From positions 3,230,020-3,294,019 of the forward strand of contig NZ_CP037422.1 in NCBI RefSeq assembly GCF_007748175.1: a stretch of 64,000 nt of DNA, written 5' to 3'. The translations under genes and the position numbers were made by a program. The notes below the pieces were generated by a model, which was not told the origin of the DNA, ran no database searches, and was given only the letters and a program-made list of their open reading frames with translations. Below are positions 24,002 to 40,390 of the stretch, piece after piece (the first letter of the stretch is position 1; each line of letters starts with the position of its first letter). This DNA comes from Gimesia aquarii (GTDB lineage Bacteria; Planctomycetota; Planctomycetia; Planctomycetales; Planctomycetaceae).

Positions 24002-24373
24002 TTAAGTACCTTACTTGAACTTTGTTCCTGCTAATATTTAGTATCTGAACAAAAATCACAAACAGGCAGAATCTCAACACGCAACCCGTTGAGATTTCTG
24101 CCTGTTTTGTTTTGATCTTAGCGTGAAATACAAGCTGTCAGTGTAATCCAAATCCCTCCCGATAAAACTCTTCTTGCACACATCAAGGATATCAGATATG
24201 GTTCCCTGTTGGCTCACACTCATGATCTACAGCAAGCGTCCTTAAAATTGAGTCAAAATGAATTCTTCAGTGCCTTTGGATTAGATTTGATTACTATCCT
24301 TACACTGAAGAATACTGATTTCAATGTACGCGAATGAATTTCGCCGATTGAACGTTCCCATGGAAGGGCGCAT
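24002..24373. other. Intergenic region between the DUF1559 and TPR/peptidase genes
   Basis: Contains the DUF1559 terminator (24061-24113). The rest shows no gene; the last 60 nt leads into the GGAAGG site of the next gene. Confidence 0.4.
24061..24113 (+). terminator. Intrinsic terminator of the DUF1559 gene
   Basis: AACAGGCAGA-ATCTCAAC pairs with GTTGAGAT-TTCTGCCTGTT across a short loop, with one bulged base, and is followed by TTGTTTT. A stem of about 17 bp. Confidence 0.85.
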
Positions 24374-26983
24374 ATGCAAAGAGTGCAGAGTTTACGATTC
24401 TGGATTGATTACACCATTCCACTTCTGCACCAGCTTTCTACTTACAAACTCCGCTCCCTCTGTCAGCTTCTGTTATCGCTTTGTTTGATCGTCACTTACA
24501 CTACAATCCCTGAATCATCATACGCCTCAGAGATTGAGAGTTGCGAACAATTATTACTTTCCGGCCAATATGAAAAATGCATCGCAACCGCCGAAACTGC
24601 CATCAATCAAAAAACATACGGCTCCGAATGGCCTGCACTCAAAGCACAAGCTGAGCTAGCCGTTGGACAATACGTTGAAGCCAGACAAACAATCGGTGCC
24701 GGCCTCAAACGCTATTCCTGGAGCCTGCCACTCAGATTGTTGGCTTATAAAATCTATCTGTTGAATAATCAACGCGATGAAGCCTTCGTGTTCTTAAACA
24801 GCATTCATGAACTCGCCAACCGTTCTGCCTGGCGTTATACCGACGCCGATAGCCTGGTCGCATTGGGACAAGCTTCATTATTAAAACATTTTGATCCGGG
24901 AGAAGTGCTTGAATCATTTTACGATCGTGCGATCAAAGAATATCCGACTCATCGAAATGCGTATCTGGCCATTGGGAGCCTGGCATTAGCTAAGAACGAC
25001 TTTGTTTTGGCACAAGAAACATTTCAAACGGCATTGAAACACATTCCCAATGATGCCGACCTTCTATTTGGTCTGGCGATGTCAATGCAACGTTCGAATC
25101 CGGAACGTTCACAAAAACTACTCATTCAGGTACTCAACTCAAACCCCAAGCATATCCCCACACAGCTACATCAAGTTTCCCAGTTGATTCACTCCGAACA
25201 ATACGATGACGCTAAAAAGCAACTGGATCAAATTTTGTTAATCAACCGACATCTGGCAGAGGCCTGGTCCTACCTGGCAGTCATCGCTCATCTGGAAAAT
25301 CAACCTGATGCTGAAACCGCTTATTACTGGCAGGCATTAAGTCATCACGATCAAAATCCCGAAGTCGACTATCTCATTGGAAAAAAGCTATCTGAACACT
25401 ATCGGTTTCAAGAAGGAGCCGCATATCAACAGCAGGCTCTAGAGAAGGATTCGAATTTCCTTCCCGCTCGGATTCAATTAGCACAGGATGAACTTCGTTT
25501 GGGACGCGAAGTCAGCGGCTGGGAGCACGCACTGCAAGCCCATCATCAAGATGGGTACGATACAACGACGTTCAACCTGCTGGAACTGAAAGACCAATTG
25601 GCAAAATTCAAAACGCTGGAAGATGATTATTTTGTCATCCGTATGGAATCGAAAGAAGCAGACGTCTACGGCCAGGAGGTCATCAAACTCTTACACGAAG
25701 CGCGAGAAGTACTCTGCCAAAAATATGATTTCAAACTCAAAGATAAAATCACTGTCGAAATCTTTCCCGATCCCGACGATTTTGCCGTACGTACATTTGG
25801 AATGCCTGCCGTCTCCGGCTATCTGGGTGTCTGCTTCGGAAAAGTGATCACGGCGAACAGCCCTGCGTCTCAATCAGAGAACCCCACCAACTGGCAGTCT
25901 GTCTTATGGCATGAATTCTGTCACGTTGTTACATTAGAACTTACAAAAAACAAAATGCCACGTTGGATCAGTGAAGGCATTTCTGTTTATGAAGAACGGC
26001 AAAAAAATCCCCGTTGGGGTGAGACTATGATTCCTGAATACCGGGAGATGATTCTGAAAGGGGAAGCCACACCGATTAGTGAATTAAGCAGTGCGTTTCT
26101 TAATCCCAAAAGCGGCATGCACATTCAATTCGCATATTATCAATCTTCGATTGTCGTTGAATATCTGATCGAACAGTTCGGGTTTGAAGCTTTAAAACAA
26201 ATTTTAAATGATCTACGTGTTGGAATTCCCATTAATGTCGCCATTGAACGACGTACAAAGACTCTGGGAGAGCTGGAACAGGAATTCGCGATCTACATAA
26301 ACGAGAAGGCCCGGAATTTTGGGCCTTCTATCGATTGGTCAGAACAGAATTTGACCGCTCTGATGAGTGATGATACACAGCGATTTGAGGAATGGATTCG
26401 AGAACACCCCCATCACTTCAAAGGCCTCATGGCATATGCTCAGGTTCTTGAAGAAGAGAACCGGCTCAAAGAACTTGAAGTGGTATTGAAGAAACTGATT
26501 CAACTCTATCCTCACTATACAGGATCAGATAATGCCAGTGAGAAATTAGCAAACCTCTTTAGACAACAAAAGCGTTTTGATCAGGAACAGAAAATACTTG
26601 AGCAATACGCGGAAATTGATCCCAATGCCCTGAATGTCTTTCATCGACTCACTGAACTCTATCAGAAGTCACAAAACTGGCCCGCAGTTTACAAAACGGC
26701 CCAACAGGCACACGCAATTAACCCACTCTACCAAGAAACTCAACAGGCACTTGCTAAAGCCTGTATCGAACTGAAACGACAGCAGGAAGCAATCAACGCT
26801 TATCGCGCCATTTTGGTGCTGAATCCGCACAATAAAGCAGAAGCTCATTATCAACTTGCCCGTTTACTGAAACAAAATGATTTCCAACTGGCAAAACGAC
26901 ACACACTCATTGCGCTCGAAGAGGCGCCTCGTTTCCGAGAGGCGCATCAACTATTACTCGAACTGACAACAAACAAACCTTAA
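24374..26983 (+). CDS. Exported TPR protein with peptidase MA-like (gluzincin) domain
   Basis: An 869-residue protein with a long N-terminal hydrophobic segment ('LLLSLCLIVTYTTIPESSYA', about residues 30-50) acting as a signal. Several tetratricopeptide repeats follow (about 55-400; e.g. 'AYLAIGSLALAKNDFVLAQETFQTALKHIP'). A peptidase-MA-type metalloprotease domain sits in the middle: the zinc motif H513-E-F-C-H517 with E534 in 'WISEGISVYEE' as the likely third ligand. More TPRs close the protein (about 640-860). The architecture suggests an envelope protease or scaffold that recruits partners through TPRs. GGAAGG lies 6 nt before the ATG. It is 54 nt from the DUF4159 gene in the same direction, so it may be the first gene of the MoxR block, though a separate promoter is possible. 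The substrate is unknown. Confidence 0.8.
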   Translation: MQRVQSLRFWIDYTIPLLHQLSTYKLRSLCQLLLSLCLIVTYTTIPESSYASEIESCEQLLLSGQYEKCIATAETAINQKTYGSEWPALKAQAELAVGQYVEARQTIGAGLKRYSWSLPLRLLAYKIYLLNNQRDEAFVFLNSIHELANRSAWRYTDADSLVALGQASLLKHFDPGEVLESFYDRAIKEYPTHRNAYLAIGSLALAKNDFVLAQETFQTALKHIPNDADLLFGLAMSMQRSNPERSQKLLIQVLNSNPKHIPTQLHQVSQLIHSEQYDDAKKQLDQILLINRHLAEAWSYLAVIAHLENQPDAETAYYWQALSHHDQNPEVDYLIGKKLSEHYRFQEGAAYQQQALEKDSNFLPARIQLAQDELRLGREVSGWEHALQAHHQDGYDTTTFNLLELKDQLAKFKTLEDDYFVIRMESKEADVYGQEVIKLLHEAREVLCQKYDFKLKDKITVEIFPDPDDFAVRTFGMPAVSGYLGVCFGKVITANSPASQSENPTNWQSVLWHEFCHVVTLELTKNKMPRWISEGISVYEERQKNPRWGETMIPEYREMILKGEATPISELSSAFLNPKSGMHIQFAYYQSSIVVEYLIEQFGFEALKQILNDLRVGIPINVAIERRTKTLGELEQEFAIYINEKARNFGPSIDWSEQNLTALMSDDTQRFEEWIREHPHHFKGLMAYAQVLEEENRLKELEVVLKKLIQLYPHYTGSDNASEKLANLFRQQKRFDQEQKILEQYAEIDPNALNVFHRLTELYQKSQNWPAVYKTAQQAHAINPLYQETQQALAKACIELKRQQEAINAYRAILVLNPHNKAEAHYQLARLLKQNDFQLAKRHTLIALEEAPRFREAHQLLLELTTNKP

Positions 26984-27017
26984 AACCATGAAAACAGGTT
27001 TTGATATGGACTAATCA

Positions 27018-27033
27018 GGCTCAAGGAGGAGCC
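27018..27033 (+). promoter_or_regulatory. Hairpin presenting the ribosome binding site of the DUF4159 gene
   Basis: GGCTC (27018-27022) pairs with GAGCC (27029-27033), leaving AAGGAG in a six-base loop. That loop is the Shine-Dalgarno sequence for the ATG at 27038. It may tune translation or be chance. Confidence 0.35.
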
Positions 27034-27037
27034 GACC

Positions 27038-27844
27038 ATGAGAACGAGTTTGATTTCATCAGCAGTGATCTGCGTGTCATTGATCGTGGTTACGATCAGC
27101 ATTGGGCAATACAGTCCGTCGATTCCCTCGGACCGAGGTGGAGTTCCGGACTGGAAAAATGACTCGGAATTCAAACATGATGTCTTCACATTTGTCCGAA
27201 TCAGATACAACTCACATCAAGGCTGGCGACGCTGGGCCACCGATTACCCCGATAGTGATCTCAATTTCTCTTATCGTTTGCAGCAACTCACTTCCATGAA
27301 AGTCGATCCGCAAGGACGCATTCTGGAACTGAGCGATGAAGAACTATTTGATTACCCTTTCATCTATATGATTGAGCCCGGCTCTCTGGAATTCACGGAA
27401 GAAGAAGTGACCGCCCTCAGACGCTATTTAACCAACGGCGGATTCATGATGGTCGACGACTTCTGGGGTGAAGCGGAATGGGATAACTTCGCTTTGGAAA
27501 TGAAACGTGTTTTTCCAGAACGAGAACTGGTAGATATTCCGCTGGAGCATCCGATTTTTCACTGCGTCTATGATCTTAAAGAAAAGCCACAAGTTCCCAG
27601 TATTGGTGTCGCACAGTGGGGACGTTCCGAGGGAATCACCTGGGAACGGGAAGACGCAAAAGAAGTTCATTATCGCGGCTTATTCGACGACCAAGGTCGT
27701 CTGATGACCGTTGTTTGTCACAATACTGACCTGGGTGATGGCTGGGAAAGAGAAGGGGAGGACAAATGGTATTTTCAAGAGTTTTCGGAAAAGAAAGCCT
27801 ACCCCCTGGGAATTAATATCGTCTTTTATGCAATGACACATTGA
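27038..27844 (+). CDS. DUF4159 domain protein, exported
   Basis: A 268-residue protein starting with a signal peptide or anchor ('SLISSAVICVSLIVVTISIGQ'). 'FVRIRYNSHQGWRRWATDYPDSDLNFSYRLQQLTSMKVDP' matches the start of DUF4159, and 'YMIEPGSLEFTEEEVTALRRYLTNGGFMMVDDFWGE' resembles the ThuA/glutamine-amidotransferase-like core seen in DUF4159, with a Gly-Gly-Phe turn but no nucleophile Cys. 'ELVDIPLEHPIFHCVYDLKEKPQVP' is a further family block. DUF4159 proteins are regularly found beside MoxR, DUF58 and BatA genes, which is the case here. The ribosome binding site AAGGAGG is very strong and lies in a small hairpin loop. It opens the seven-gene block, 42 nt before moxR. The molecular role is unknown. 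Confidence 0.85.
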   Translation: MRTSLISSAVICVSLIVVTISIGQYSPSIPSDRGGVPDWKNDSEFKHDVFTFVRIRYNSHQGWRRWATDYPDSDLNFSYRLQQLTSMKVDPQGRILELSDEELFDYPFIYMIEPGSLEFTEEEVTALRRYLTNGGFMMVDDFWGEAEWDNFALEMKRVFPERELVDIPLEHPIFHCVYDLKEKPQVPSIGVAQWGRSEGITWEREDAKEVHYRGLFDDQGRLMTVVCHNTDLGDGWEREGEDKWYFQEFSEKKAYPLGINIVFYAMTH

Positions 27845-27886
27845 ATGCAGCGCACGTCATTTTATCGTTTTTTCAGGAGCTGAATC

Positions 27887-28912
27887 GTGAACTTGAAACT
27901 TGTCACCCCTGAGGGCCGCAGTGAAGAAGAACGCATTTTCGAAATGCTGCAGAATAGTCGTCAACAGATAGACTCCGAAATTTCCAAAGCGGTCATCGGA
28001 CAAAAAGAAATCATTGATCAACTTCTAATTGCATTATTTGCAGGAGGGCACTGTCTTATTACAGGAGCCCCCGGACTCGCCAAAACATTACTGGTGAATT
28101 CACTGGCCCAGGTATTCAAATTGAAATCACAACGCATTCAGTTCACACCAGACCTGATGCCTGCAGACATCACGGGCACAGAAATTTTAGCTGCAGATTC
28201 TCAAGACGAACAAGGATTGAAATTCGTCAAAGGACCTGTCTTTACCAATATCCTTTTAGCCGATGAAATCAACCGGACACCTCCTAAAACTCAAGCAGCT
28301 TTATTAGAAGCGATGCAGGAAAAACAAGTTACGGTTACCGGCGTCAAATACGAACTGGACAAACCCTTTTTTGTACTGGCGACTCAAAACCCAATCGAAA
28401 TGGAGGGCACCTACCCGCTCCCCGAAGCGCAGCTGGACCGTTTCATGTTTAATCTGGTCATCGACTATCTTTCGGAGGATGACGAAGTCGCCGTGGTCAC
28501 TCAAACCACGGCCCGCGATTCTGAACCGATTGTCCCTCTCTTCACGGGCCATGACATTCAACAGTTTCATCAATTTGTCCGCGACGTTCCGGTTGCTGAA
28601 GAGATTGTGCGTTATGCAGTTCAACTCTGCGCCGCTTCTCGTCCTCATCAGCCGGGCACTCCTGACTTTGTGAATGAATGGGTCAACTGGGGTGCTGGAC
28701 TGCGAGCTGCACAAAGCTTGATTCTCGGAGCCAAAGCACGCGCGGTTCTGTGGGGGCGAGTGCACGTCACAATGGAAGACATTCAGGCATTATTGGCGCC
28801 TGTCCTCAGACACCGCATCCTGATCAATTATCGTGCTGAAGCGGAAGGCATTACCGTCGAACAGATTGTCCAGCAATTGATTGAATCTACGAAAAGGCCC
28901 GTTGCAGCATGA
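27887..28912 (+). CDS. MoxR family AAA+ ATPase
   Basis: A 341-residue AAA+ ATPase of the MoxR branch, which assists assembly or activation of partner complexes together with VWA-domain proteins. Motifs: 'VIGQKEIIDQLLIALFAGGHCL', Walker A GAPGLAKT, Walker B 'ILLADEINRTPPKTQAALLEAMQE' (D-E), sensor 1 'FVLATQNPIEMEGTYPLPEAQLDRFMF' and the C-terminal lid with 'RAVLWGRVHVTMEDIQALLAPVLRHRI'. It should be cytoplasmic and hexameric. GTG start at 27887 with AGGAG upstream. Its last four bases overlap the ATG of the DUF58 gene, a translationally coupled arrangement that implies equal synthesis. Confidence 0.97.
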   Translation: MNLKLVTPEGRSEEERIFEMLQNSRQQIDSEISKAVIGQKEIIDQLLIALFAGGHCLITGAPGLAKTLLVNSLAQVFKLKSQRIQFTPDLMPADITGTEILAADSQDEQGLKFVKGPVFTNILLADEINRTPPKTQAALLEAMQEKQVTVTGVKYELDKPFFVLATQNPIEMEGTYPLPEAQLDRFMFNLVIDYLSEDDEVAVVTQTTARDSEPIVPLFTGHDIQQFHQFVRDVPVAEEIVRYAVQLCAASRPHQPGTPDFVNEWVNWGAGLRAAQSLILGAKARAVLWGRVHVTMEDIQALLAPVLRHRILINYRAEAEGITVEQIVQQLIESTKRPVAA

Positions 28913-29853
28913 GTTCATTTTCAATGAAACAAAATTCCCCTCACAAAACGAAACAGAATCAGCGATTCGCATCCCAGCGCATTGACCCAGCCTGTTTAAT
29001 GCGCATCAAATCTTTGGAACTAAGGGCCAAATCGGTTGTGGAAGGATCCTGGAATGGTTTACATCGCAGTCCTTACCACGGGTTTTCGGTAGAATTCACT
29101 GAATACCGAGAGTACTCACCTGGTGATGATCCCCGCCACATCGACTGGAAACTGGCAGCCCGATCGAATCAGCACTTTATCAAACGCTACGAAGAAGAAA
29201 CGAATCTCTGCTGTCATATGCTGCTCGATTTAAGTTCGTCCATGCAATTCCACAGCCTGGGTTATTCCAAAGCAGATTATGCCAAAACCCTGGTCGCGAC
29301 GTTTGCCTATTTTCTTTCAACTCAACGTGATGCGAGTGGTCTGATTATCTTTGATGAACAGGTCGAATCAGTTGTGCCTGCGCGTTTTACCCGCGGTCAG
29401 CTTAGAAGAATCCTGATTGAACTGGAACGACCTCCACAGGGGTCCCATACCAATTTCATCTCTCCGTTAAAACATGCAGTAGAAACCATCAAGAAACGGG
29501 GGTTGGTCGTGTTAGTCTCCGACCTGCTTTCTCCCACTGAGGAGTTAAGTACACACCTGGGATATCTGCGTGCCAAAGGCCATGAGGTTGCTTTGTTTCA
29601 AATCCTTGACCCGGCTGAGCTTCATTTTGACTTCAGTGAAACCGCGATTTTTGAAGATCTGGAATCAGGAGACCATATGGCCCTGAATCCGAAAGCAGCT
29701 CAGGCCAATTATCAGCAGCAAATGGACCAACATTTGGAAGAAATTCAAACGATTTGTCGACAGCAAGGAGTGCATTACCACAAACTGACGACGGATACGC
29801 CGCTGGAGTCGGGCTTATCCAGTTTTCTAACCGATCGCGCCGCATGGAAGTAA
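28909..29853 (+). CDS. DUF58 domain protein (VWA-like)
   Basis: A soluble 314-residue DUF58 protein, the usual partner of MoxR. The defining block is 'HRSPYHGFSVEFTEYREYSPGDDPRHIDWKLAARSNQHFIKRYEEE', with Y-x-P-G-D-D-x-R-x-I-D-W. The following VWA-like fold has 'MLLDLSSSMQFHS' (metal-site D-x-S-x-S), 'VATFAYFLSTQRDASGLIIFDE' and 'LVVLVSDLL'. No membrane helix is seen. Start ATG 28909 overlaps the moxR stop (ATGA). 22 nt separate it from the next gene. In known MoxR operons the DUF58 protein is thought to be an adaptor between ATPase and membrane VWA proteins (inference here). Confidence 0.95.
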   Translation: MSSFSMKQNSPHKTKQNQRFASQRIDPACLMRIKSLELRAKSVVEGSWNGLHRSPYHGFSVEFTEYREYSPGDDPRHIDWKLAARSNQHFIKRYEEETNLCCHMLLDLSSSMQFHSLGYSKADYAKTLVATFAYFLSTQRDASGLIIFDEQVESVVPARFTRGQLRRILIELERPPQGSHTNFISPLKHAVETIKKRGLVVLVSDLLSPTEELSTHLGYLRAKGHEVALFQILDPAELHFDFSETAIFEDLESGDHMALNPKAAQANYQQQMDQHLEEIQTICRQQGVHYHKLTTDTPLESGLSSFLTDRAAWK

Positions 29854-29875
29854 TTTAATAATAGAGGAAGTACCG

Positions 29876-31978
29876 TTGAGTTTTTTGACCCCACTCTATT
29901 TATTTGGAATCATAGCCGTCGGCTTACCGATCTTACTGCATCTGGTCAGACATCAACCTAAAAATGTCTTTCAATTCAGTACGCTCCGCTTCCTGGAACA
30001 CAAGCCCCCTCAGACGAACCGCAAAAACAAAATTGAACACTGGTTACTATTACTACTTCGGGCTGTCGCCGTGATGTTACTGGTCGCCGCTTTTGCACGT
30101 CCCTTTTTCAAAAGCAAGGATCTTGAACTGGCTAAGAATTCCACAACTCAGCAAACCATTTTGTTGATCGACACGAGTTCCAGCATGCGGCGGGAAACAC
30201 TTTGGAACGCAGCTCTAGAAAAAGCCAAAAACATCATTCAACAAGCGAGGAAGAATCAAATCGCAATTTACACCTTTGATTCGAAGCTGACTCCTGTTAA
30301 AGGTCTTAATGAAACAAAACAGCTAAAAACTCATCAGTCCCATAAATTCGATCAGGAACGACTCACAAAGTTAACCCCTGGATGGAATTCTACAAATCTT
30401 GGTAAGGCTTTGACTGAAATTGCTGCGCTGTTACAGCAGCAGGCCGCTTCCGATCCAGCAAAAACTCCTCTGCAAAACAGCACGATTGAACTGATCACTG
30501 ATTTTCAGGCAGGTTCTCAACTTAATGCACTTAATAATTTCTCATGGCCAGAGGAACTCAAAGTTCGTTTACATCAACTGCCAGTCAAAAAAACAAGTAA
30601 TGCCGGTTTACAATTGCTGGCATTGAATGAGTCATCCGAGGCGACTGTGCGCATCGTTAATGCCGCCGATTCCAAACAGGAGCAATTTACACTCACCTGC
30701 CAGGGGAAAGAGAGTACATCGAAACAAGTTTATGTTCCCCGGGGTCAATCGCGCGTGGTCCAAATACCGACACAAGAAGATATGCAGCATGTCAAACAAA
30801 TCGTTCTCAGTGGCGATGCGCATGATTTTGACAATACGCTTTATCTTCAGCCAATTACAAAAACAAAATTAAATATCGTGCATTACGCCACACCCGAAAC
30901 CAGCGCCACTCAATCTCCTGACTTTTTTGCCAAACGGGCATTTCCTTCCACCAAATCGCGAGAAGTTCATTATCTGACAGTCGGCCCTGATTCACCCAAA
31001 ATTTTGATTGCTTCGACCAAGATTCATCTGATGATACTCAGCCGCCCACTATCACAGTCTGAAACCAGTCTGGTGAAACAATATCTGCAACAAGGTGGAA
31101 TCGTGCTCTGTTCTTTACATAATGAGAGAGCCAGTCAAACCTTAAAATCATTACTCCCTTTCCCACAAAAAATAGCCAGAAAATTGACCGTTGCTCCCGC
31201 TGAAGTAAATGGCTACGCACTACTCACGAACATCAACTTTGATCATCCGACCTTTCAAATGTTTCAGGCTCCTGAATTCTCAGACTTTACAAAACTGAAG
31301 TTCTGGAAGTATCAACGACTGAGCTTGCCAGACAGCGTCCCACATCAGGTTCTCGCGCGCTTCGATCATGTGCATCCTGCGATTCTGAATATTCCAAGTG
31401 GAGAAGGGCAGTTGATCGTCATGACATTTGGTTGGACTCCCCAGGAAAGTCAGTTCGCACTTTCTACCAAATTTGTACCGATGATGAACGTGATTCTGGC
31501 TCAAAATGCAAGGTTGATCGAAGTTCCTTCACAATTCACAGTCGACGAAAAAATCAAATTGCCGAACATCAAACAACTCACAAAAATCGCTAACCTCAAC
31601 TCATCCCCCATTAAGTTAGCTATCGGCAAAGCCGACCTTGAAGAAAACATTCAACCGGGTCTCTATGAGGTTATGGTCGAAGAAGAAAACATGCCAGCAC
31701 AAACGTTTGCAGTCAATCTGGCAATTGACGAAAGCAAAACCGCCCCACTAGCAGTGGAAAAGCTGGAAGCATTGGGAGTCAAGCTCCTTAAACCTGGTGA
31801 AACCACCGAAGCAGAGTCAAAGTCTTTCGATGTTCGACGTCAGGTACTCATTCAAGAACTGGAACAAAAACAAAAAATCTGGCGTTGGCTGATCATTGTC
31901 GCTCTCGCAATGCTTTGTCTGGAAACCCTGCTGGCGAAATGGATCGCCAGTCCTACTTCAGCGACACGAAAGGCGTAA
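29876..31978 (+). CDS. BatA/VWA-domain membrane protein
   Basis: A 700-residue protein of the aerotolerance BatA type. It begins 'MSFLTPLYLFGIIAVGLPILLHLVR' (membrane helix 1) and 'FQFSTLRFLEH' (the BatA signature), then helix 2 ('LLLLRAVAVMLLVAAFARPFF'). The VWA domain has the metal site 'LLIDTSSSM' (D-x-S-x-S). A long periplasmic part (about 250-660) follows, with strands such as 'GIVLCSLHNERA', and a final helix 'WRWLIIVALAMLCLETLLAKWI'. TTG start at 29876 preceded by AGGAAG. It abuts the DUF4175-like gene: stop at 31978, next ATG at 31981. It would present its VWA domain to partners at the membrane. Confidence 0.93.
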   Translation: MSFLTPLYLFGIIAVGLPILLHLVRHQPKNVFQFSTLRFLEHKPPQTNRKNKIEHWLLLLLRAVAVMLLVAAFARPFFKSKDLELAKNSTTQQTILLIDTSSSMRRETLWNAALEKAKNIIQQARKNQIAIYTFDSKLTPVKGLNETKQLKTHQSHKFDQERLTKLTPGWNSTNLGKALTEIAALLQQQAASDPAKTPLQNSTIELITDFQAGSQLNALNNFSWPEELKVRLHQLPVKKTSNAGLQLLALNESSEATVRIVNAADSKQEQFTLTCQGKESTSKQVYVPRGQSRVVQIPTQEDMQHVKQIVLSGDAHDFDNTLYLQPITKTKLNIVHYATPETSATQSPDFFAKRAFPSTKSREVHYLTVGPDSPKILIASTKIHLMILSRPLSQSETSLVKQYLQQGGIVLCSLHNERASQTLKSLLPFPQKIARKLTVAPAEVNGYALLTNINFDHPTFQMFQAPEFSDFTKLKFWKYQRLSLPDSVPHQVLARFDHVHPAILNIPSGEGQLIVMTFGWTPQESQFALSTKFVPMMNVILAQNARLIEVPSQFTVDEKIKLPNIKQLTKIANLNSSPIKLAIGKADLEENIQPGLYEVMVEEENMPAQTFAVNLAIDESKTAPLAVEKLEALGVKLLKPGETTEAESKSFDVRRQVLIQELEQKQKIWRWLIIVALAMLCLETLLAKWIASPTSATRKA

Positions 31979-31980
31979 AT

Positions 31981-34900
31981 ATGGGCCTTCCCGATCTCAT
32001 ACAACAACTTAATCAAGTCGTGTTTCGTTATGAGGCCAGTCGAAAATTGAAACGACTGACACTGATTTGGCTGGCTGCCGGCGGCCTGACGATACTCGCA
32101 TGTCTTTTTCTCAAACCGATTTCCTCGCAGCAAGATCAACTCTTTTTATTGGCTGTACTGCTTGGGATTCCGTTTTTAGCTGCGATAGGAACACTTTTCT
32201 CTCGGGTTCACAAACTCCTTTCGCCCGCCAACAGACATAAAGTTGCAACATTAATAGAACGAACTTATCCGGATTTGGATACCAGTCTGCTGGCTACGTT
32301 GGAATTGGAAAACGCAACGAATGAAATTCATCCAACATTTCTACAAAACCGCCTGGTTCAACAAGTCATTGAACACGGAACACAACACGATTGGAGGCAA
32401 ACCATCTCCAACCGCAAGTTATTTCTGCAAAGTACCGCTCATGTAGTCTGTTTCACAGCCTGGTTTGTTGGTTGTCTCAGTTGCTGGTCCTACCTGAAAG
32501 CAGCACCACTACCAAAAGAAATCCCACTCGCTACTACCTCAGATAGCAAACAGTATCTGGTCGAAATCAAACCGGGAACGATAGAGCTTGAAAAAAATCA
32601 TCCTTTGTTGATCACCGCCCGTTTTACAGGAGAAACTCCTGAAACAGCAACCTTGCGAATTACCTCAGCTTCCGATGAACCCCAAACCATCCCATTAGAC
32701 AAGCATCTGGACGATCCTATATTTGCGGTCCGATTACCTAAGATTGCCCATGATCTTTCCTATATCGTCCAGGCAGATTCCTGGGAATCAGAAACCTATC
32801 AGGTCAAAGTCTTTGTTCTGCCTGAACTGCTTCAACTGGATACGGTGATTAACGCTCCTGACTATACAGGACGACCCACGCAAAAAATGGAAGACGCGTT
32901 ACAAATGAGTGCGATCGTCGGTTCGTCAATTGAGTTACAGGCTCGTTTTAACAAACCAGTGCAAACCGCGTTACTCGAATCAGAAAATCAGCAACCGCTT
33001 CCGCTGAAAGTCAGCTCAGATGGCATGTCAGCCCGAATCAGAATCATCGCAGAGAATAACCAGTCCTGGAATCTGCGTTTGATCGATTCTCATTCACGCG
33101 AAAATCGAACGCCGCCTTATATTGATCTGGTGGTCGTTCCCAACCTGCCTCCCGAAATCAAGGTCACATTCCCAGCCCGTGATACGCGTGTCTCTCCACT
33201 GGAAGAAGCGTTAGTGCAAGGTAGTGTCAGTGATGATTTTGGTCTGCAACAAGTGGGTCTCGTCTATACAATTCCCGGACAAACAGCGCAGACTCTCTCG
33301 CTACGTGAAACAACAAAGCCTGTTTTAGAATTTGTCGCAGAACATCTGCTCTCTCTGGAACGCCTCCAGGTCCAGCCGGACACTTTAATTTCGTATTACC
33401 TCTTTGCAGAAGATATTGCCCCTGATGGCAACACGCGCAAAGTACTCAGTGATATGTACTTCATGGAAGTTCGCCACTTTGAGGAAATCTTCAGAGAAGG
33501 GCGGTCTGCGAGTAGCTCATCACAATCAAAAAAGTCTGGAGGGAATGCAAAGCAGGTAGAAAAACTGGCGGAACAACAAAAACAAATCATCAATGCGACC
33601 TGGAAAATTATTCGACGGGAAATCAAATCCACAGTCTCTGATCAATTCAACAAAGATGTATCAACGGTTCATGAAGCTCAACAGGCATTAGTTACCAGTG
33701 TTTTAAAACTGGCTTCAAAGGTCAAATCGCACAAGTCAAAAGTAATCATCGATTCTGTCGTCCATAAAATGCAGGAAACCGTCTCGATTCTCGATTCAGT
33801 CAATCAATCTCGCAATGTTGAACAACTCACGGCTGCCCTCAATACAGAACAGTCAAGTTACCAATTATTGTTGAAACTGAGAGCAAGAGAACATCGTGTC
33901 TCAAAAAACAAGAATGGTGGAGGCAGTAAAGGAGGAGGCAGCAGTCGCTCTCAACAGCAAATGCAACAACTTGAGTTGACCAACAAGAAACAACGTTACG
34001 AAACAGAAAATCAGGCGTCTCAAGCTCAAGCAGCACAACCTGATCGCGAAGCATTACAAATTCTCAATCGACTCAGAGAACTGGCACAACGTCAAAAAGA
34101 CCTGAATGAACAATTGAAAGCGTTATCTGATAAAAAGCGGCTCGCAAAAAATGACCAGGAACGAGAAGAAATCGAACGGCAACTCAAGCGGCTTAGAGAA
34201 CGTCAACGGGAATTGCTCCGTAATACCGACGAAGTGGCCCAAAAAATGGATCAGTCGAAAAAAGCCTCTTCCGCAAAATCGAGACGCGAACTTGAACAAA
34301 CGCGTTCTCACTTACAGCAAAGCTCAGAAGCACTCAAAAAAGGACAGGTCTCCCGCGCACTCAATTCAGGCACCAGAGCACAACAGCGATTGGATCAACT
34401 CAAAAATGAATTCCGCAAAAAAACAGCCAACCAATTTGCAGATGCAATGCGTTCCCTGAATAAGCAGGCAGAACAGCTTAATCAGAAGCAAAAAGAAATC
34501 AGCCAGGCACTCAACAAACAACAGCAATCAACGCAACCTGAAAAAAAACGTTCATTGCGCAAAAATAAAGGGCAGCAAGCAATGGCCGACAAATTACACG
34601 AACAGGAATCCGACCTGAAAAATCTTGTCGAGCAAATGAAGAAAATCGTTCAGGAATCAGAAAAATCAGAGCCTTTACTTTCGAAACATCTTTATGATGC
34701 GATTCGGAAAACCAGACCTTATCGTCCTGCAGATTCCTTAAAAAATGCAGCCAACTTTCTGAAAGAGGGTGCCTCTGAACGTGCACAGCAGGCGGAACAA
34801 CGTGCCGCAGAGGGAATTGAGGCAATGAAACAGGGAATCGAAGTTGCTGTTGAAAGCGTTTTAGGAAATGACCTGGAATCTCTTAAACGGGCGCGAGAGG

Positions 34901-35607
34901 CAATAAAAGCACTCTCATCAGAAATGAAGAACGAACAAAAGCTGGCTGGTAACCCGAATTCACAAAAGCAGCGCACCGCTTCTTCACCAAAAGCCACACC
35001 CTCCGGTAGCCCAAAAACTCGTACAGATAAGCAATCAACTTCCTCAAAGCCGGGACAGCAAAAGCAGGCTGGCTCGCCTTCCGGTCAGGGTAAATCTCCT
35101 GTGCAACTCGCTTCTGCACAAAAGGGAAAAGGGCAGGGTTCTGGACCAAAACCGGGAGTTTCACAATCATCAACATCAAAGACAGGTCCGAAAACACTGA
35201 AAAGCGCTAAGGGAAAATCCAAAAGTGGCTCGGGTGGCAGTCAGGGAGGTCCTGGAGGTCAAACAACCGGGCCAATTACAGGTAATCAATTTCGAAAGTG
35301 GTCTGACCGTATGCGGGATGTGGAGGAAATGGTAGGCGATCCCGATCTCCGCAGTAAAGTGGCTCAGATTCGAGAACGTGCACAAAGTATGCGTGCGGAA
35401 TTTAAACGACACTCTAAAGTACCGAAGGGAGACCTGGTTAATGCGCAAATCCTGGAACCGCTGGCTGAACTTCAAAAAATATTGTCCAACGAAATCATTA
35501 AACGAGGCGCGCAAACAACGTTGGCACCAATCGACGGTGACCCGGTACCGGAAAAATACTCCGATCTGGTCCGTCGCTATTATGAAGAATTAGGGAGTGG
35601 AAAATGA
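31981..35607 (+). CDS. Large DUF4175-like membrane coiled-coil protein
   Basis: A 1208-residue protein. Three hydrophobic helices near the N-terminus (about 25-45, 50-70, 155-175) anchor it; a beta-rich part follows (about 190-480, with 'FGLQQVGLVYTIPG'). From about 560 to 960 it is a long coiled coil rich in Gln, Glu, Lys and Arg ('RELAQRQKDLNEQL', 'REEIERQLKRLRERQREL'). Residues 980-1090 are low-complexity Lys/Ser/Gly/Pro ('KQRTASSPKATPSGSPK', 'GSGGSQGGPGGQ'), probably disordered. The last 110 residues form a helical domain. This is the DUF4175-like pattern of planctomycete MoxR operons. I start at ATG 31981 rather than an upstream start inside the previous gene. It overlaps the next gene by 4 nt (ATGA at 35604). 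Confidence 0.85.
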   Translation: MGLPDLIQQLNQVVFRYEASRKLKRLTLIWLAAGGLTILACLFLKPISSQQDQLFLLAVLLGIPFLAAIGTLFSRVHKLLSPANRHKVATLIERTYPDLDTSLLATLELENATNEIHPTFLQNRLVQQVIEHGTQHDWRQTISNRKLFLQSTAHVVCFTAWFVGCLSCWSYLKAAPLPKEIPLATTSDSKQYLVEIKPGTIELEKNHPLLITARFTGETPETATLRITSASDEPQTIPLDKHLDDPIFAVRLPKIAHDLSYIVQADSWESETYQVKVFVLPELLQLDTVINAPDYTGRPTQKMEDALQMSAIVGSSIELQARFNKPVQTALLESENQQPLPLKVSSDGMSARIRIIAENNQSWNLRLIDSHSRENRTPPYIDLVVVPNLPPEIKVTFPARDTRVSPLEEALVQGSVSDDFGLQQVGLVYTIPGQTAQTLSLRETTKPVLEFVAEHLLSLERLQVQPDTLISYYLFAEDIAPDGNTRKVLSDMYFMEVRHFEEIFREGRSASSSSQSKKSGGNAKQVEKLAEQQKQIINATWKIIRREIKSTVSDQFNKDVSTVHEAQQALVTSVLKLASKVKSHKSKVIIDSVVHKMQETVSILDSVNQSRNVEQLTAALNTEQSSYQLLLKLRAREHRVSKNKNGGGSKGGGSSRSQQQMQQLELTNKKQRYETENQASQAQAAQPDREALQILNRLRELAQRQKDLNEQLKALSDKKRLAKNDQEREEIERQLKRLRERQRELLRNTDEVAQKMDQSKKASSAKSRRELEQTRSHLQQSSEALKKGQVSRALNSGTRAQQRLDQLKNEFRKKTANQFADAMRSLNKQAEQLNQKQKEISQALNKQQQSTQPEKKRSLRKNKGQQAMADKLHEQESDLKNLVEQMKKIVQESEKSEPLLSKHLYDAIRKTRPYRPADSLKNAANFLKEGASERAQQAEQRAAEGIEAMKQGIEVAVESVLGNDLESLKRAREAIKALSSEMKNEQKLAGNPNSQKQRTASSPKATPSGSPKTRTDKQSTSSKPGQQKQAGSPSGQGKSPVQLASAQKGKGQGSGPKPGVSQSSTSKTGPKTLKSAKGKSKSGSGGSQGGPGGQTTGPITGNQFRKWSDRMRDVEEMVGDPDLRSKVAQIRERAQSMRAEFKRHSKVPKGDLVNAQILEPLAELQKILSNEIIKRGAQTTLAPIDGDPVPEKYSDLVRRYYEELGSGK

Positions 35608-37943
35608 ATTGTTTGGCCCAATTACAATTCGCTGCACCTCATTGGACTACAATTGCAGTCGTCACGATTATCGCTGGACTGATTCTCGTGATTTTTGCGT
35701 ATCGATCTCTCACGTTAAAACGCTCTCTGGCGAGTGCTGCGATATGCTTGAAAGTCTTCGGTATCGTAATTCTTTCAATTGCCTTGACCGAACCACTCTG
35801 GAGTGGCACACATGTCCAACCCGGTACCAATTTGTTTGCCGTAGTAGTCGACAATAGTCAAAGTCTGCAAATCAAAGATCCGAAAACGAAGCAGCCACGC
35901 CTGGAGCAAGTCAAACAATTACTCACTTCATCACAGCCGGCAGAAAAGAATAATCTCCCAGAATGGCTCATCAATCTAGAACAGAATTTTTCCGTTCGAA
36001 AATATTCAGTCAATGCACATACAAAAGCGATACCAGAACTGCAACACCTTCAATTTGATGGTTCAAAAACAAATCTTGTTTCAGGACTCAACGAATTAAA
36101 TCAACGTTATACCAAGTTACCGTTAGCGGGTATCCTGTTGATGACCGATGGAATTTCCGCCGAGGAAATCAGTCGTCTGGAAACGTCCGCCCCCATTTAT
36201 CCGATTGTGATTGGAAGCACTTTACCAGCCATTGATCTTGCCATCAAAAACACAGCAATCAGTTATTCGCCTTTTGAAGATGCACCGATTCGAATTCTCG
36301 CAGACCTCTCTGCGAGTCAGTGTCAGAATCAACAAATAAAAGTAGAACTACAGGACGAATCTGGTAAGACTGTCGAAACCGTGACGCGTGAGGTCAGTCA
36401 GCAGGAACAACAGTTTCAAATTCGATTTCAGATCCGTCCTGAAGAAACCGGTATTGCCTTTTATCAACTCAAAGCCACTCTTATCGCACCACAAAGTGCA
36501 GAAGTGACGCTTGCCAATAATCATCGCATGTTGAAAATTGATCGCGGTCGAAAAGCACACCGGGTGCTCTATGTCTCTGGTCGTCCTAACTGGGAATTCA
36601 AATTCCTCCGACGCGCGATTGAAGAAGATGAATTTATTAATCTCGTGGGCCTGATTCGTATCGCAAAAAAAGAAACCAAATTTGACTTCCGCAGTCGAGA
36701 CGGAGAAGAAGGCAATGCTTTATTTCGAGGCTTTGATCAAGACAATGACTCCGACCTCGAACGCTATGATCAGCCCGTTTTCATGCGAATCAACACGAAA
36801 TCGCCCCATGAATTGCAAGATGGTTTCCCCAAAACAGAAGAAGAACTCTTTCAGTATGAATCGATCATTATTGATGATTTGGAAGCGGCTTTCTTCTCGC
36901 ACGATCAAATAGAGCTGATTACTCGATTTGTTTCAGAGCGAGGAGGTGGGCTGTTGATGCTGGGCGGACAGGAGTCGTTTCAAAAGGGTGGTTATCATAA
37001 AACAGATCTCGCTCGCCTCTTACCCATTTATTTCCCACAACGAAAAACTGCTGCTCTCGAAACGGAATACCAATTTTCACTGACCCGCGACGGTTGGCTT
37101 CAACCCTGGATGCGGCATCATAAGAATGAGCAAGAGGAACACAAACGTCTGGCCGAGATGCCACCATTCAAAACGATCAATCGTGTCGATACCACAAAAC
37201 CCGCTGCAACTCTGGTTGCAGAATTGAAAAGCTCAAAAACTGATGCACAGCCGGCTATAGCCACTCAACGCTATGGCCGGGGGCGTGTCGCAGCGGTAAT
37301 GGTTGGTGACCTCTGGCGGTGGCGACTAAAAGAAGATTCCCAGTCTCCCCAACTCAACAAATCCTGGCGACAGCTCTTACGCTGGATGACAACTGATGTG
37401 CTGGAGCCCATTGATTTACGGGTTGAGAACAATCCGAGTGGAAATAAAGGTACAAAAATCAGAGTCTTCGTCCGCGATCCTCAGTTTCAGAAGCGTAGTG
37501 ACTATCAAGTGCAACTGGAAATCACAACGCCTCAAAAAGAACGGATCAAGCTGATTGCCGACCCCGTCAACGACAAGCCTGGAGAATACCAGTCGGTTTT
37601 TCTCCCCTCTCAATCAGGTGGGTATCATATTTCAGCTACGGTGACGGCCCCGGACTCGAAAACCAAAACGATTCAAGGTGGTTGGGTACACGATCCGCAA
37701 AGTACTGAATTTCGTGCGATTCAACCGAATCTTGAACTTTTACAACAAATCGCCACTCAATCAAAGGGTGAAGTGATCCCGGCTGACCAGTTACCACAGT
37801 TTGTAAAAACACTCGATCAACGACATATTCCTGTTACCGCAGAGGTAGTGACTCCCCTCTGGCATCATCCCTGGGTCCTGTTGCTCGTACTGGGCTGCCT
37901 GTTTGGTGAATGGTCTTTACGACGATGGAAAGGATTACCCTGA
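35604..37943 (+). CDS. VWA-like membrane protein with glutamine-amidotransferase-like domain
   Basis: A 779-residue membrane protein. Two helices at the start ('TTIAVVTIIAGLILVIFAYR' and 'LKVFGIVILSIALTEPLW') and one at the end ('PWVLLLVLGCLFGEWSL') anchor it. A VWA domain begins 'LFAVVVDNSQSLQIKD' (D-x-S-x-S). A CARDB-like beta part follows ('PFEDAPIRILADLSAS'), then 'VLYVSGRPNWEFKFLRRAIEED' and 'GGGLLMLGGQESFQKGGY', typical of the class I amidotransferase-like fold fused to such VWA proteins; no catalytic Cys is visible in that region. Its start overlaps the DUF4175-like gene (ATGA), and its stop overlaps the next gene (TGATG). It looks like the second membrane subunit of the block. Confidence 0.88.
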   Translation: MNCLAQLQFAAPHWTTIAVVTIIAGLILVIFAYRSLTLKRSLASAAICLKVFGIVILSIALTEPLWSGTHVQPGTNLFAVVVDNSQSLQIKDPKTKQPRLEQVKQLLTSSQPAEKNNLPEWLINLEQNFSVRKYSVNAHTKAIPELQHLQFDGSKTNLVSGLNELNQRYTKLPLAGILLMTDGISAEEISRLETSAPIYPIVIGSTLPAIDLAIKNTAISYSPFEDAPIRILADLSASQCQNQQIKVELQDESGKTVETVTREVSQQEQQFQIRFQIRPEETGIAFYQLKATLIAPQSAEVTLANNHRMLKIDRGRKAHRVLYVSGRPNWEFKFLRRAIEEDEFINLVGLIRIAKKETKFDFRSRDGEEGNALFRGFDQDNDSDLERYDQPVFMRINTKSPHELQDGFPKTEEELFQYESIIIDDLEAAFFSHDQIELITRFVSERGGGLLMLGGQESFQKGGYHKTDLARLLPIYFPQRKTAALETEYQFSLTRDGWLQPWMRHHKNEQEEHKRLAEMPPFKTINRVDTTKPAATLVAELKSSKTDAQPAIATQRYGRGRVAAVMVGDLWRWRLKEDSQSPQLNKSWRQLLRWMTTDVLEPIDLRVENNPSGNKGTKIRVFVRDPQFQKRSDYQVQLEITTPQKERIKLIADPVNDKPGEYQSVFLPSQSGGYHISATVTAPDSKTKTIQGGWVHDPQSTEFRAIQPNLELLQQIATQSKGEVIPADQLPQFVKTLDQRHIPVTAEVVTPLWHHPWVLLLVLGCLFGEWSLRRWKGLP

Positions 37944-39013
37944 TGCAAAATCGATGTATGTACAGATTACTATCGGGAATCATCGGCACATTGTTACTCT
38001 GCAACTTTGAACTTATCCGTTCTGAAGCGGCCGCTCCTCCCATCGAGAACAAAGAACGTATTCTGATTGTCGTCGGTGCAGCCGGTCAGGAAAAATATGA
38101 GCAGCAGTTCGCAAGTTGGGTTGCGCGTTGGAAAGAAATCGCATCTCACAAAAGAGCAGAAGTATCAGTCATAGGTGAATGCATCGATGCCCGGTGTTCC
38201 GACCTGAAATTGTTGCAGAAGGAACTACAGCGTGAAACAGACAACATAACAGCTACCTGGTTGATCTTAATCGGGCATGGTACATTCGATGGAAAAACGG
38301 CGCGATTTAACTTAAGAGGACCTGATGTCACTGCCGAGCAGTTAAGCGCATTATGTGACCCCGTTAAACATCCCCTGGCAGTGATTAACTGTTTTTCTGC
38401 CAGCGGCCCCTTTATAGAAGCACTTTCGGCAGACAAACGTGTGATCATTACAGCCACCAAGAACGGACATGAATTCTACTTTTCTCGCTTTGGTGGCTTT
38501 CTTGCTGAGACAAGTACTCAAGAGCAGACGGACCTGGATCACGATGGCCAGGTCTCTCTGCTGGAAGCTTATTTATCCGCTTGCCGCGATACGAACGCGT
38601 ATTATCAGCAGAAAGGAGAATTAGCCACCGAACACGCATTGCTGGATGACAATGCCGATCGAAGTGGAACACGCGGCGATCAATATCAGGGGCTGATTAA
38701 GATCCCCGATCAGAATTCGAATACAGCGATTTTAGCAGATGGCCACAGAGCTCATCAATTCATCCTGTTCTCTACTCACAAAGTGGAATTGCTTTCCGGA
38801 GAACAAAAACGAAAACGAGATGAACTGGAAATTCAAATTCTGGAATTGAAACAACGCAAAGCGTCGTTTTCCAGCCTGAATGAATACTATCTGACTCTGG
38901 AACCGTTAATGGTTCAGCTGTCACAGATCTACCGTCAGCTTGATCAACAGAAAAGACCTGTGATTTATGACCCTCTGGTCGTTCCCGCCAATGCAAAAAA
39001 GACCGGAAAATAA
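37943..39013 (+). CDS. Exported caspase-fold (clan CD, C13/C14-like) protein with EF-hand-like loop
   Basis: A 356-residue protein with a signal peptide (about 1-29, 'LLSGIIGTLLLCNFELIRSEA') and so probably periplasmic. The core reads as a caspase-like fold: strand 'RILIVVGAAG', then a hydrophobic strand ending H112-G ('WLILIGHGTFDGK') and a second ending N-C150 ('PLAVINCFSASGP'), the His-Gly and Cys spacing of clan CD cysteine peptidases. 'DKRVIITATKNG' matches the next strand of legumain-like (C13) proteins. Residues 197-208 (D-L-D-H-D-G-Q-V-S-L-L-E) match the 12-residue EF-hand calcium loop. A coiled coil ends the protein. ATG 37943 overlaps the previous stop (TGATG), with AAAGGA 9 nt before. 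Activity is not shown. Confidence 0.8.
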   Translation: MQNRCMYRLLSGIIGTLLLCNFELIRSEAAAPPIENKERILIVVGAAGQEKYEQQFASWVARWKEIASHKRAEVSVIGECIDARCSDLKLLQKELQRETDNITATWLILIGHGTFDGKTARFNLRGPDVTAEQLSALCDPVKHPLAVINCFSASGPFIEALSADKRVIITATKNGHEFYFSRFGGFLAETSTQEQTDLDHDGQVSLLEAYLSACRDTNAYYQQKGELATEHALLDDNADRSGTRGDQYQGLIKIPDQNSNTAILADGHRAHQFILFSTHKVELLSGEQKRKRDELEIQILELKQRKASFSSLNEYYLTLEPLMVQLSQIYRQLDQQKRPVIYDPLVVPANAKKTGK

Positions 39014-39024
39014 CCGGTCCTTTT
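39001..39024. terminator. Hairpin terminator overlapping the stop of the caspase-like gene
   Basis: GACCGG (39001-39006) pairs with CCGGTC (39014-39019), with CTTTT after it and AAAAAA before it. It includes the TAA of the caspase-like gene and lies between convergent genes, so it may serve both strands, ending the MoxR block and the sigma-factor gene. Confidence 0.65.
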
Positions 39025-39058
39025 GCTGATTGATGTATCTGATTGGATTATCAGAGAA

Positions 39059-39898
39059 TTATTCCCCGGTAATTTCCTTAGCTAATTTTTTGAGTGCTTC
39101 ACTTTCAATCTGACGCACACGTTCTCGGGTCAGCCCCAGTGTCTGTCCGATCTCTTTAAGTGTTTTTGGTTCGTCGCCATCCAACCCAAAACGCATGCGT
39201 AGTATATTGGCTTCGCGATCGGGAATTTCTTTCAACAGACGAAAAACGTGTTTAAGGTTGTCATTCTCAACCAACTCATCATCGGGACCTTTCAATCGCT
39301 CATCGGGAATCATCTCTCCGAGCGACCAGCCAGCGTCTTGTTGTTCTGATTGTGGTGAAGAGTTATAGAGCTGAATCGCTTTCTTAACAATCTTCAACTT
39401 TTTCGGAGGCAGATCTAATTCTTTTGCGACTTCCTCCGTAGTGGGAGTTCGATCAAGCGAATCTTGAAGCTGTGCCGTCGCGCGTCGCCATTTCGTGAGT
39501 AATTCAACCATGTAAGCGGGAATACGAATTGTCTTCGCAGAATTCACAAGTGCCCGCTTGATTGATTGTTTAATCCAGTAGCTGGCATAGGTACTGAACC
39601 GGGTCCCCATGTCGGGGTCAAAACCTTCAACGGCTCGTAATAAACCAAGATTCCCTTCTTCAATCAGATCTTGAAGTGGCAACCCTTTACCGGCATAGGC
39701 ACGGGCAATATTAACGACTAACCTCAGATTCGCACGCACCATCCGATCGCGGGCTTCTTTATCGCCACTTTCAATACGACGAGAAAGATCTTTTTCTTCT
39801 TCTGCAGAGAGCAGAGCGGTTTCGTTAATCTCTTTGAGGTATGTTTCTAACGGATTCTGTACGGCTGAAGAGGAGCGCCGTCGAGCAGTTTTCTGCAT
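39059..39898 (-). CDS. RNA polymerase sigma factor, RpoD/SigA-like (group 1/2)
   Basis: A 279-residue sigma-70 factor lacking region 1.1. Region 1.2 is 'NPLETYLKEINETALLSAEEE'; region 2 'NLRLVVNIARAYAGKGLPLQDLIEEGNLGLLRAVEGFDPDMGTRFSTYASYWIKQSIKRAL' carries the -10 recognition and melting helices; region 3 follows ('IRIPAYMVELLTKWRRA'); region 4 ends 'TLKEIGQTLGLTRERVRQIESEALKKL', the -35 helix-turn-helix. The -35 recognition helix sequence is standard, so it should read TTGACA-like promoters. Group 2 is likely by length, yet planctomycetes often have several short sigma-70 copies and this could be a major one. Start ATG 39898 with a weak ACAGG site. Confidence 0.93.
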   Translation of the reverse strand: MQKTARRRSSSAVQNPLETYLKEINETALLSAEEEKDLSRRIESGDKEARDRMVRANLRLVVNIARAYAGKGLPLQDLIEEGNLGLLRAVEGFDPDMGTRFSTYASYWIKQSIKRALVNSAKTIRIPAYMVELLTKWRRATAQLQDSLDRTPTTEEVAKELDLPPKKLKIVKKAIQLYNSSPQSEQQDAGWSLGEMIPDERLKGPDDELVENDNLKHVFRLLKEIPDREANILRMRFGLDGDEPKTLKEIGQTLGLTRERVRQIESEALKKLAKEITGE

Positions 39899-40390
39899 GG
39901 AAAACCTGTTATCTATTTGTTGTTAGCAAATGGAAAAGCCGAAAGATTTCCGTGGCTTCCCATTAAATTGCAGACGTTCGCGGGAACTCGTTTCCTCTCG
40001 ATACGATATCTCAATCACAGAATTCAGGCAGGTAGACCTTTCACTCTGTAGAATTCTTATCGGCAAAGAATGACCCGTTCCTGAACTTCGTATGGAAAAG
40101 CAGGGCACTGAAAGAGGAATCTGCGGAAACTGTGACGGTTGTAACGAATAGATAGATTTAGAATGCTAAAATACAGCCATTATTATAGTTTCGGAGATTT
40201 CTCACTCCCGGGCATTGCATCAAAGGCAGTTGATGTTCGTCTCAAAAGAAAACACGGGAATCCCCTGCAGACATTACCCTGAAAAATGTCTGCCACAATC
40301 GAACAGAGGTAAAATAAAAAAGCGGTGGCCACTGACGACCACCGCTTTCGTATTTCTCAAACTGTAAATCGAGATTCGATTTACAGGGGA
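39899..40390. other. Intergenic region between the sigma factor and rpsA
   Basis: Holds the rpsA terminator (40311-40348) and presumably the promoter of the sigma-factor gene on the minus strand. No gene is visible. Confidence 0.4.
40311..40348 (-). terminator. Intrinsic terminator of rpsA
   Basis: AAAGCGGTGG (40319-40328) pairs with CCACCGCTTT (40339-40348) around a 10-nt loop. On the minus strand a TTTTTTATTTT run follows the stem, about 45 nt after the rpsA stop. Confidence 0.88.

Follow-up and report, generated by a model that had tools for sequence, protein, structure and literature searches.

An eight-gene MoxR/DUF58/BatA block in Gimesia aquarii ending in a caspase-fold gene, probably a pseudo-peptidase

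Gene content and layout of the block

The stretch of Gimesia aquarii DNA analyzed here (contig NZ_CP037422.1, positions 3,230,020 to 3,294,019; 64,000 nucleotides, hereafter the window) belongs to a genome of 7.2 Mb in a single contig. Between positions 24374 and 39013 of the window, eight genes run in one direction on the forward strand, coding in order for TPR/Peptidase_MA_2, DUF4159, MoxR, DUF58, BatA-type VWA, DUF4175-like, VWA/GATase1_like and caspase-like proteins (genes 1 to 8). A first-pass annotation of the window had described seven genes and named the TPR/peptidase-MA gene as a possible eighth member. This gene heads the block in 16 of the 22 genomes assessable for gene order, and the number is corrected to eight. 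The overlaps and gaps that the annotation gave between the genes are correct.

A terminator-like hairpin on the forward strand (24060-24107, with a T-rich tail to 24113) is located 3' of the upstream DUF1559 gene and sets the upper limit of the transcription unit; its fold of -27 kcal/mol (z -6.7) was matched by none of 200 shuffles. The loop of a second terminator-like hairpin on the same strand (39001..39019, z -4.5) contains the gene 8 stop codon. Each of the 10 other Gimesia-type loci examined (9 distinct) keeps the stem of this hairpin, 4 of them (3 distinct) with a paired change, and the first gene past gene 8 (39059-39898) is on the opposite strand. Judged from sequence, it is plausible that the eight genes form one transcription unit. 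A promoter scan gave 15 matches against 21.3 in shuffles, fewer than the shuffles themselves, and a search of 23900-40500 with Rfam at gathering scores gave no RNA element. Sequence searches of the PDB gave no match. A moderately stable fold (26975-27045, z -3.3) spans the gap between genes 1 and 2 and lies over the GGAGG before the DUF4159 start, where translational control of that gene is possible.

Membrane and N-terminal segments were called by simple hydropathy, a method that also flagged a marginal stretch in MoxR and thus has false positives. Gene 1 (24374..26983) combines TPR repeats with a domain match to Peptidase_MA_2, a gluzincin with the motif HEFCH. Its N-terminal hydrophobic stretch is marginal and its export is probable. 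Because HExxH is intact in 16 of 16 aligned rows, gene 1 is the better candidate for the block's protease. Gene 2 (27038..27844) matches DUF4159 with 195.6 bits and has an N-terminal hydrophobic segment. DUF4159 was considered as a clear homologue of the GATase-like part of gene 7 and rejected, the hhalign probability being only 9. Elsewhere in the same genome (C1:1584206-1585465) DUF4159 is matched twice in an 822-amino-acid frame close to a MoxR gene. The MoxR AAA+ ATPase of gene 3 (27887..28912) matches AAA_3 with 209 bits as well as AAA_lid_2, and keeps the Walker A lysine in 39 of 49 rows (the other 10 gapped, mostly cut sequences) and the Walker B Asp-Glu in 47 of 49 (2 gapped). Gene 4 (28909..29853) is a VWA-type DUF58 gene by domain match, in which hydropathy found no transmembrane-like stretch; DxSxS is present in 62 of 62 rows, and the genome holds 11 DUF58 matches.

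The sequences suggest that genes 5, 6 and 7 encode membrane proteins. Gene 5 (29876..31978), matched by the BatA and two_anch models, is predicted to have two N-terminal and one C-terminal transmembrane-like segments and keeps DxSxS in 64 of 64 rows. The match of gene 6 (31981..35607) to DUF4175 is below the cut-off (20.9 against 27.3 bits); two N-terminal transmembrane-like segments are followed by a long K/Q/E-rich region that is probably coiled-coil. Gene 7 (35604..37943) codes for a VWA protein with a GATase1-like part, the VWA domain being sub-threshold in Pfam. Within its VWA motif D83 and S85 are found in 91 of 92 rows, and position 87 is Ser in 66 and Gly in 24. No cysteine is conserved at the GG elbow (Cys at position 458 in 4 of 92). 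The predicted model (predicted local distance difference test, pLDDT, 82.6; predicted template modelling score, pTM, 0.67) has 2gk3, Salmonella STM3548, as its top Foldseek match. Genes 5 and 7 are distant full-length paralogues (hhalign probability 94, E 1.4e-7), and 13 gene-7-type match pieces are present in the genome.

Conservation of the caspase-fold gene with gene 7 and the block

The same 195 Planctomycetota genomes were searched with profiles of the caspase gene and of gene 7, giving matches in 30 genomes at 1e-10 and in 187 genomes at 1e-5, respectively. Strong matches to the caspase profile (at least 360 bits) and to the gene 7 profile (at least 653 bits) occur in the identical 24 genomes, in each of which the two genes are neighbours on one strand, no more than 300 bases apart. 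Six of these genomes are of the same genus (the window's own included), a further ten of the same family and a further six of the same class, while two belong to other classes.

Gene order was counted in 22 genomes, including that of the window; L158 and L167 were left out because a contig end was too near. All eight genes are found in order in 16 of the 22, in agreement with the first-pass proposal of one conserved block that includes the caspase-fold gene. Nor is the caspase gene rarely beside the MoxR genes, one of two findings that had been named as counting against that proposal: 18 of the 22 genomes have MoxR in the block as well. Partial blocks hold seven genes in L164 (no TPR gene), six in L166 and three in L146. 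L154, L155 and L165, which are of one genus, have only genes 7 and 8 together, suggesting that these two are the closest functional pair.

Among GTDB genomes, the best 80 of 446 named loci found are assigned by title or tree position to Planctomycetota and Verrucomicrobiota, a number of them under odd names of metagenome-assembled genomes (MAGs). Gene 7 is immediately upstream of the caspase gene in 75 of the 80, and in the other five the frame starts at base 94 of the contig or earlier. The caspase frame overlaps gene 7 or begins no more than 333 nucleotides from it in all 98 measured pairs. Where at least 9 kb of upstream sequence was available, 49 of 51 loci have the order DUF4175-like, gene 7, caspase, and two have gene 7 and caspase only. 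No family of downstream frames (at least 150 amino acids each) is found again on the same strand in more than 6 of 100 loci. Distances among the caspase proteins are correlated with the distances for genes 4-7 (r 0.81-0.88, 53 shared loci; 0.91-0.96 among genes 4-7 themselves), values that shared descent alone could give, as the correlation has no unlinked control gene. One locus titled as a Klebsiella pneumoniae MAG (L039) falls among Verrucomicrobiota rows in the tree of caspase proteins, and its bin is very probably mislabelled; similar doubts attach to some Akkermansia and Kuenenia titles.

Were the caspase-fold gene a mere neighbour, co-located by shared ancestry and functionally unconnected to the block, the three loci with only genes 7 and 8 and the uncontrolled distance correlation would be readily accommodated. 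We consider this quite improbable, since the gene adjoins gene 7 in all 24 genomes and in all 75 named loci that could be tested, and no family is conserved downstream.

A remote sample of 20 gene-7-like blocks was picked from genomes lacking a strong match. The caspase gene is present in none of the 20, one of which (L205) has just 0.5 kb downstream, and it is also missing beside the next-best gene 7 match (L173, in genome G008) and beside the paralogue in the window's own genome (L177). The caspase gene therefore marks one block subfamily. Gene 7 precedes the DUF4175-like gene in 9 of the 20 remote blocks, the caspase-type order is found in one (L212), and no DUF4175-like frame was seen in 10. 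Of the eight weaker caspase matches, seven are located in blocks downstream of gene 7 (L168-L172, L175 and L176) and one, L174, is not. A DUF4159 frame lies between gene 7 and the caspase gene in L169, L171 and L172, and another gene does so in L176; in L169, L171, L172 and L175 the DUF4159 frame adjoins the caspase gene rather than heading the block. Two tandem MoxR genes head the divergent blocks L168, L169 and L170. A second MoxR-DUF58 set follows the caspase gene in L162 and in L023 (12032-13836), so that MoxR blocks can sit in tandem.

Residue pattern of the caspase-fold protein

Gene 8 (37943..39013) codes for a protein with the caspase fold of families C13 and C14, carrying the histidine of the GHG motif (His112), Cys150, Ser152 and two EF-hand-like loops; it is a probable pseudo-peptidase. 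The gene is single copy in its genome, and the named near relatives of the protein are from Gimesia. The N-terminus is weakly hydrophobic and the product is probably exported. No match to PF01650 or PF00656 was obtained with the window protein even at E 10. PF01650 was matched weakly by 4 of 44 family members, with a best E of 0.083, and the genome as a whole, in which PF01650 was not searched for, contains no PF00656 match.

Residues were counted over 103 distinct aligned proteins scoring at least 200 bits against the family profile, the window protein included and weaker homologues left out. His112 and Ser154 are invariant. Position 150 is Cys in 79 proteins, Thr in 12, Ala in 7, Ser in 3 and Gly in 2, and position 152 is Ser in 98 and Ala in 5.

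Which of the two positions corresponds to the nucleophile was assessed with a C13-type set (A6, found through L174), in which 7 of 15 rows are labelled C13 and all 15 have the cysteine, within the motif PC.SGGF or near it. MAFFT with intermediate rows matched this cysteine to Ser152 with no gap around the motif, and so did hmmalign with L174 and, with one one-residue gap, HMMER; hhalign, which opened two gaps, matched it to Cys150. The Ser152 register is favoured because it needs fewer gaps and because L170, a block member that passes both the C13 and C14 cut-offs, has a cysteine there. At this position the seven distant homologues from blocks carry S, P, C, P, G, P and P. From these alignments Ser152 is likely the nucleophile position, with Cys150 at -2; Cys150 would then presumably take the place of the S1-pocket residue, which is Glu187 in legumain and Gln283 in caspase-1. 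Whichever register is used, the aligned sequences indicate that not every family member has retained a cysteine nucleophile, and the gene 8 protein is probably not a cysteine peptidase.

On a quick tree, which carries long-branch warnings, Cys150 changed at least 11 times, four of the changes being forced by well-supported branches. Repeated loss of Cys150 as a nucleophile was considered and rejected because the intermediate rows pointed to Ser152; as such, the 11 changes most likely concern the residue two before the nucleophile. Rows with and without Cys150 share 47 columns that are at least 95% conserved in both, and C150 is the sole column at least 97% conserved in the Cys rows and below 85% in the others. 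The rows lacking Cys150 accordingly do not look decayed. In one survey of planctomycete metacaspases the dyad was kept in only 64% (PMC3501461), and MoxR-vWA systems offer a precedent for caspase-fold members that are inactive (PMC7159879).

The EF-hand-like loops (residues 197-208 and 235-246) are nearly invariant in the 103 proteins. D197, D201, S205 and E208 of loop 1 are invariant and D199 is present in 101; in loop 2, D236 and D239 are invariant and position 246 is D or E in 95. A weak Pfam match to EF-hand_5 was obtained in 12 of 44 family members. L176 (14626-15732), from a paralogous block, codes for a caspase-fold protein in which the likely nucleophile position is Pro, GHG is replaced by GHS and both calcium-type loops are recognisable.

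We regard it as unlikely that gene 8 encodes an active calcium-dependent cysteine peptidase, with Cys150 as nucleophile and His112 as base, that the MoxR/VWA machine releases or activates as a signalling or stress output. Metacaspases are a precedent for calcium control, which the loops would fit, His112 and Cys150 are present in 103 and 79 of the 103 proteins, and hhalign, by opening two gaps, does set Cys150 opposite the C13 cysteine. However, the profile alignments and intermediate rows place the nucleophile at Ser152, and even with Cys150 in that role 24 of 103 proteins are without it, the tree asks for its repeated change, and C150 alone among conserved columns separates the two groups of rows. 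A serine hydrolase or peptidase using Ser152 and His112 would suit the near constancy of both residues, yet position 152 is Ala in five proteins, and six of the seven distant homologues lack Ser there, five having Pro or Gly. We know of no precedent for a serine hydrolase on the caspase fold and hold this reading to be very improbable.

The first-pass interpretation is partly supported. The caspase-like member is upheld as to its fold and its place in the block, with the amendment that it is confined to one block subfamily and is probably no cysteine peptidase; the suggested signalling or surveillance role is hypothetical.

Relation to known systems and proposed role

Bat (Bacteroides aerotolerance) operons resemble the block in having MoxR, DUF58, BatA-type VWA and TPR proteins; the available portions of their descriptions mention no GATase-like VWA, DUF4159 or caspase-fold gene (PMC5700661, PMC11834572). 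Two features of a Bat-type module are present here, namely a MoxR with Walker motifs and adjacent DUF58 and BatA-type VWA genes with DxSxS. The cmdABCD operon of Rhizobium leguminosarum (RL3499-RL3502) was set against the Gimesia block by its description, and in the excerpts available no caspase-fold or TPR-gluzincin gene is mentioned. Its content we take to be DUF58, DUF4159 and DUF1355, now GATase1_like. It has been reported that this operon affects membrane integrity and cell morphology (PMC5700661, PMC3893208), and tables list growth defects on TY medium for RL3499, RL3500 and RL3501 (PMC5118466, PMC4255674). The MoxR/DUF58/BatA core is therefore of a described kind, contrary to the earlier suggestion of a complex not described under one name, a statement that holds for the added genes alone in the literature searched. 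No description of a caspase-fold gene in a MoxR/DUF58/BatA block was found in that literature, which is thin on subscription journals. Compared with C13 peptidases such as legumain, gene 8 has Ser or Ala at the likely nucleophile position, does not reach PF01650, and is a constant partner of a MoxR/VWA block.

MoxR-vWA conflict systems (Kaur et al. 2020) likewise join MoxR and VWA proteins to a caspase-fold member, and inactive caspase domains have been described in them, including about 70% of those in effector position in VMAP systems (PMC7159879). An anti-invader role of the block with the caspase-like protein as effector could also draw on the MoxR passing the Pfam bpMoxR cut-off (39.2 against 27 bits). 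However, AAA_3 fits this protein far better, Pfam and PADLOC found no VMAP, iSTAND, double-FtsH or beta-propeller among the eight proteins, and the block differs in its membrane or exported members and in a gene content that is largely constant across distant relatives. PADLOC gave weak AAA matches on MoxR only (17.4 bits at most), for which reason a defence system was rejected, and we consider a conflict system highly unlikely.

Our preferred interpretation, to which we give slightly better than an even chance, is that the block is an eight-gene envelope-maintenance module of the MoxR/DUF58/BatA kind, in which gene 8 encodes a pseudo-peptidase partner of the gene 7 protein, probably a calcium-dependent binding or capping subunit. 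MoxR ATPases are thought to be chaperones in the maturation of protein complexes (PMC3893208), and the DUF4175 protein AdvA is described as a division protein in Acinetobacter (PMC7481262). It is this chaperone role, together with the envelope and morphology effects in R. leguminosarum and the division role of AdvA, that leads us to read the block as an envelope-maintenance machine. Going by their families, the cytoplasmic MoxR and its DUF58 partner would drive the ATP-dependent assembly or remodelling of the paralogous membrane VWA/GATase-like proteins of genes 5 and 7, which the DUF4175-like protein of gene 6 may bridge. The N-termini of the TPR-gluzincin, DUF4159 and caspase-fold proteins are consistent with action on the periplasmic side, the last as a dedicated partner of the gene 7 protein. 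The protein retains its fold and the histidine of GHG, and among the orthologues the EF-hand-like loops as well, but most likely not the cysteine nucleophile, so that binding or capping is a more probable function than proteolysis. Gene order, co-conservation, fold and residue pattern are observed here; the operon, topology, complex, calcium binding and function are inferred.

Several observations weigh against this interpretation. Of the 195 genomes only 24 have the strong pair, and both strong matches are missing from four members of the same family (G099, G160, G176 and G180). In L146, L154, L155 and L165, genes 7 and 8 have no MoxR alongside. The hhalign register would leave a cysteine nucleophile in 79 of 103 proteins, and a cysteine stands at position 152 of L170, one of the distant block members. 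Among these seven distant members, loop 2 is recognisable in just L175 and L176, and L169 and L171 have a truncated loop 1, which argues against a universal calcium role, and L175 is also without the histidine.

More tentative still, and in our view rather doubtful, is the general claim that a MoxR-driven envelope machine in Planctomycetota and Verrucomicrobiota includes, as a fixed subunit on the periplasmic side, a caspase-fold pseudo-peptidase gated by calcium. If true, a bacterial caspase fold would have been turned from cutting to peptide or protein recognition in core envelope maintenance, rather than serving cell death or defence. Planctomycetes have unusual and poorly understood cell envelopes, and a block common to members of two phyla, with its MoxR engine, two membrane VWA proteins and constant caspase-fold partner, is a specific candidate for a machine of envelope maintenance that can be put to the test. 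It further suggests that caspase-like proteins in these bacteria do not have to imply programmed cell death. The residue pattern, with the histidine and calcium-type loops kept and the likely nucleophile gone, predicts which mutations should or should not matter.

About 6 kb downstream of the block (45365-47356) is a gene for an FtsH-type protease of the ordinary form, with one AAA and one M41 domain.
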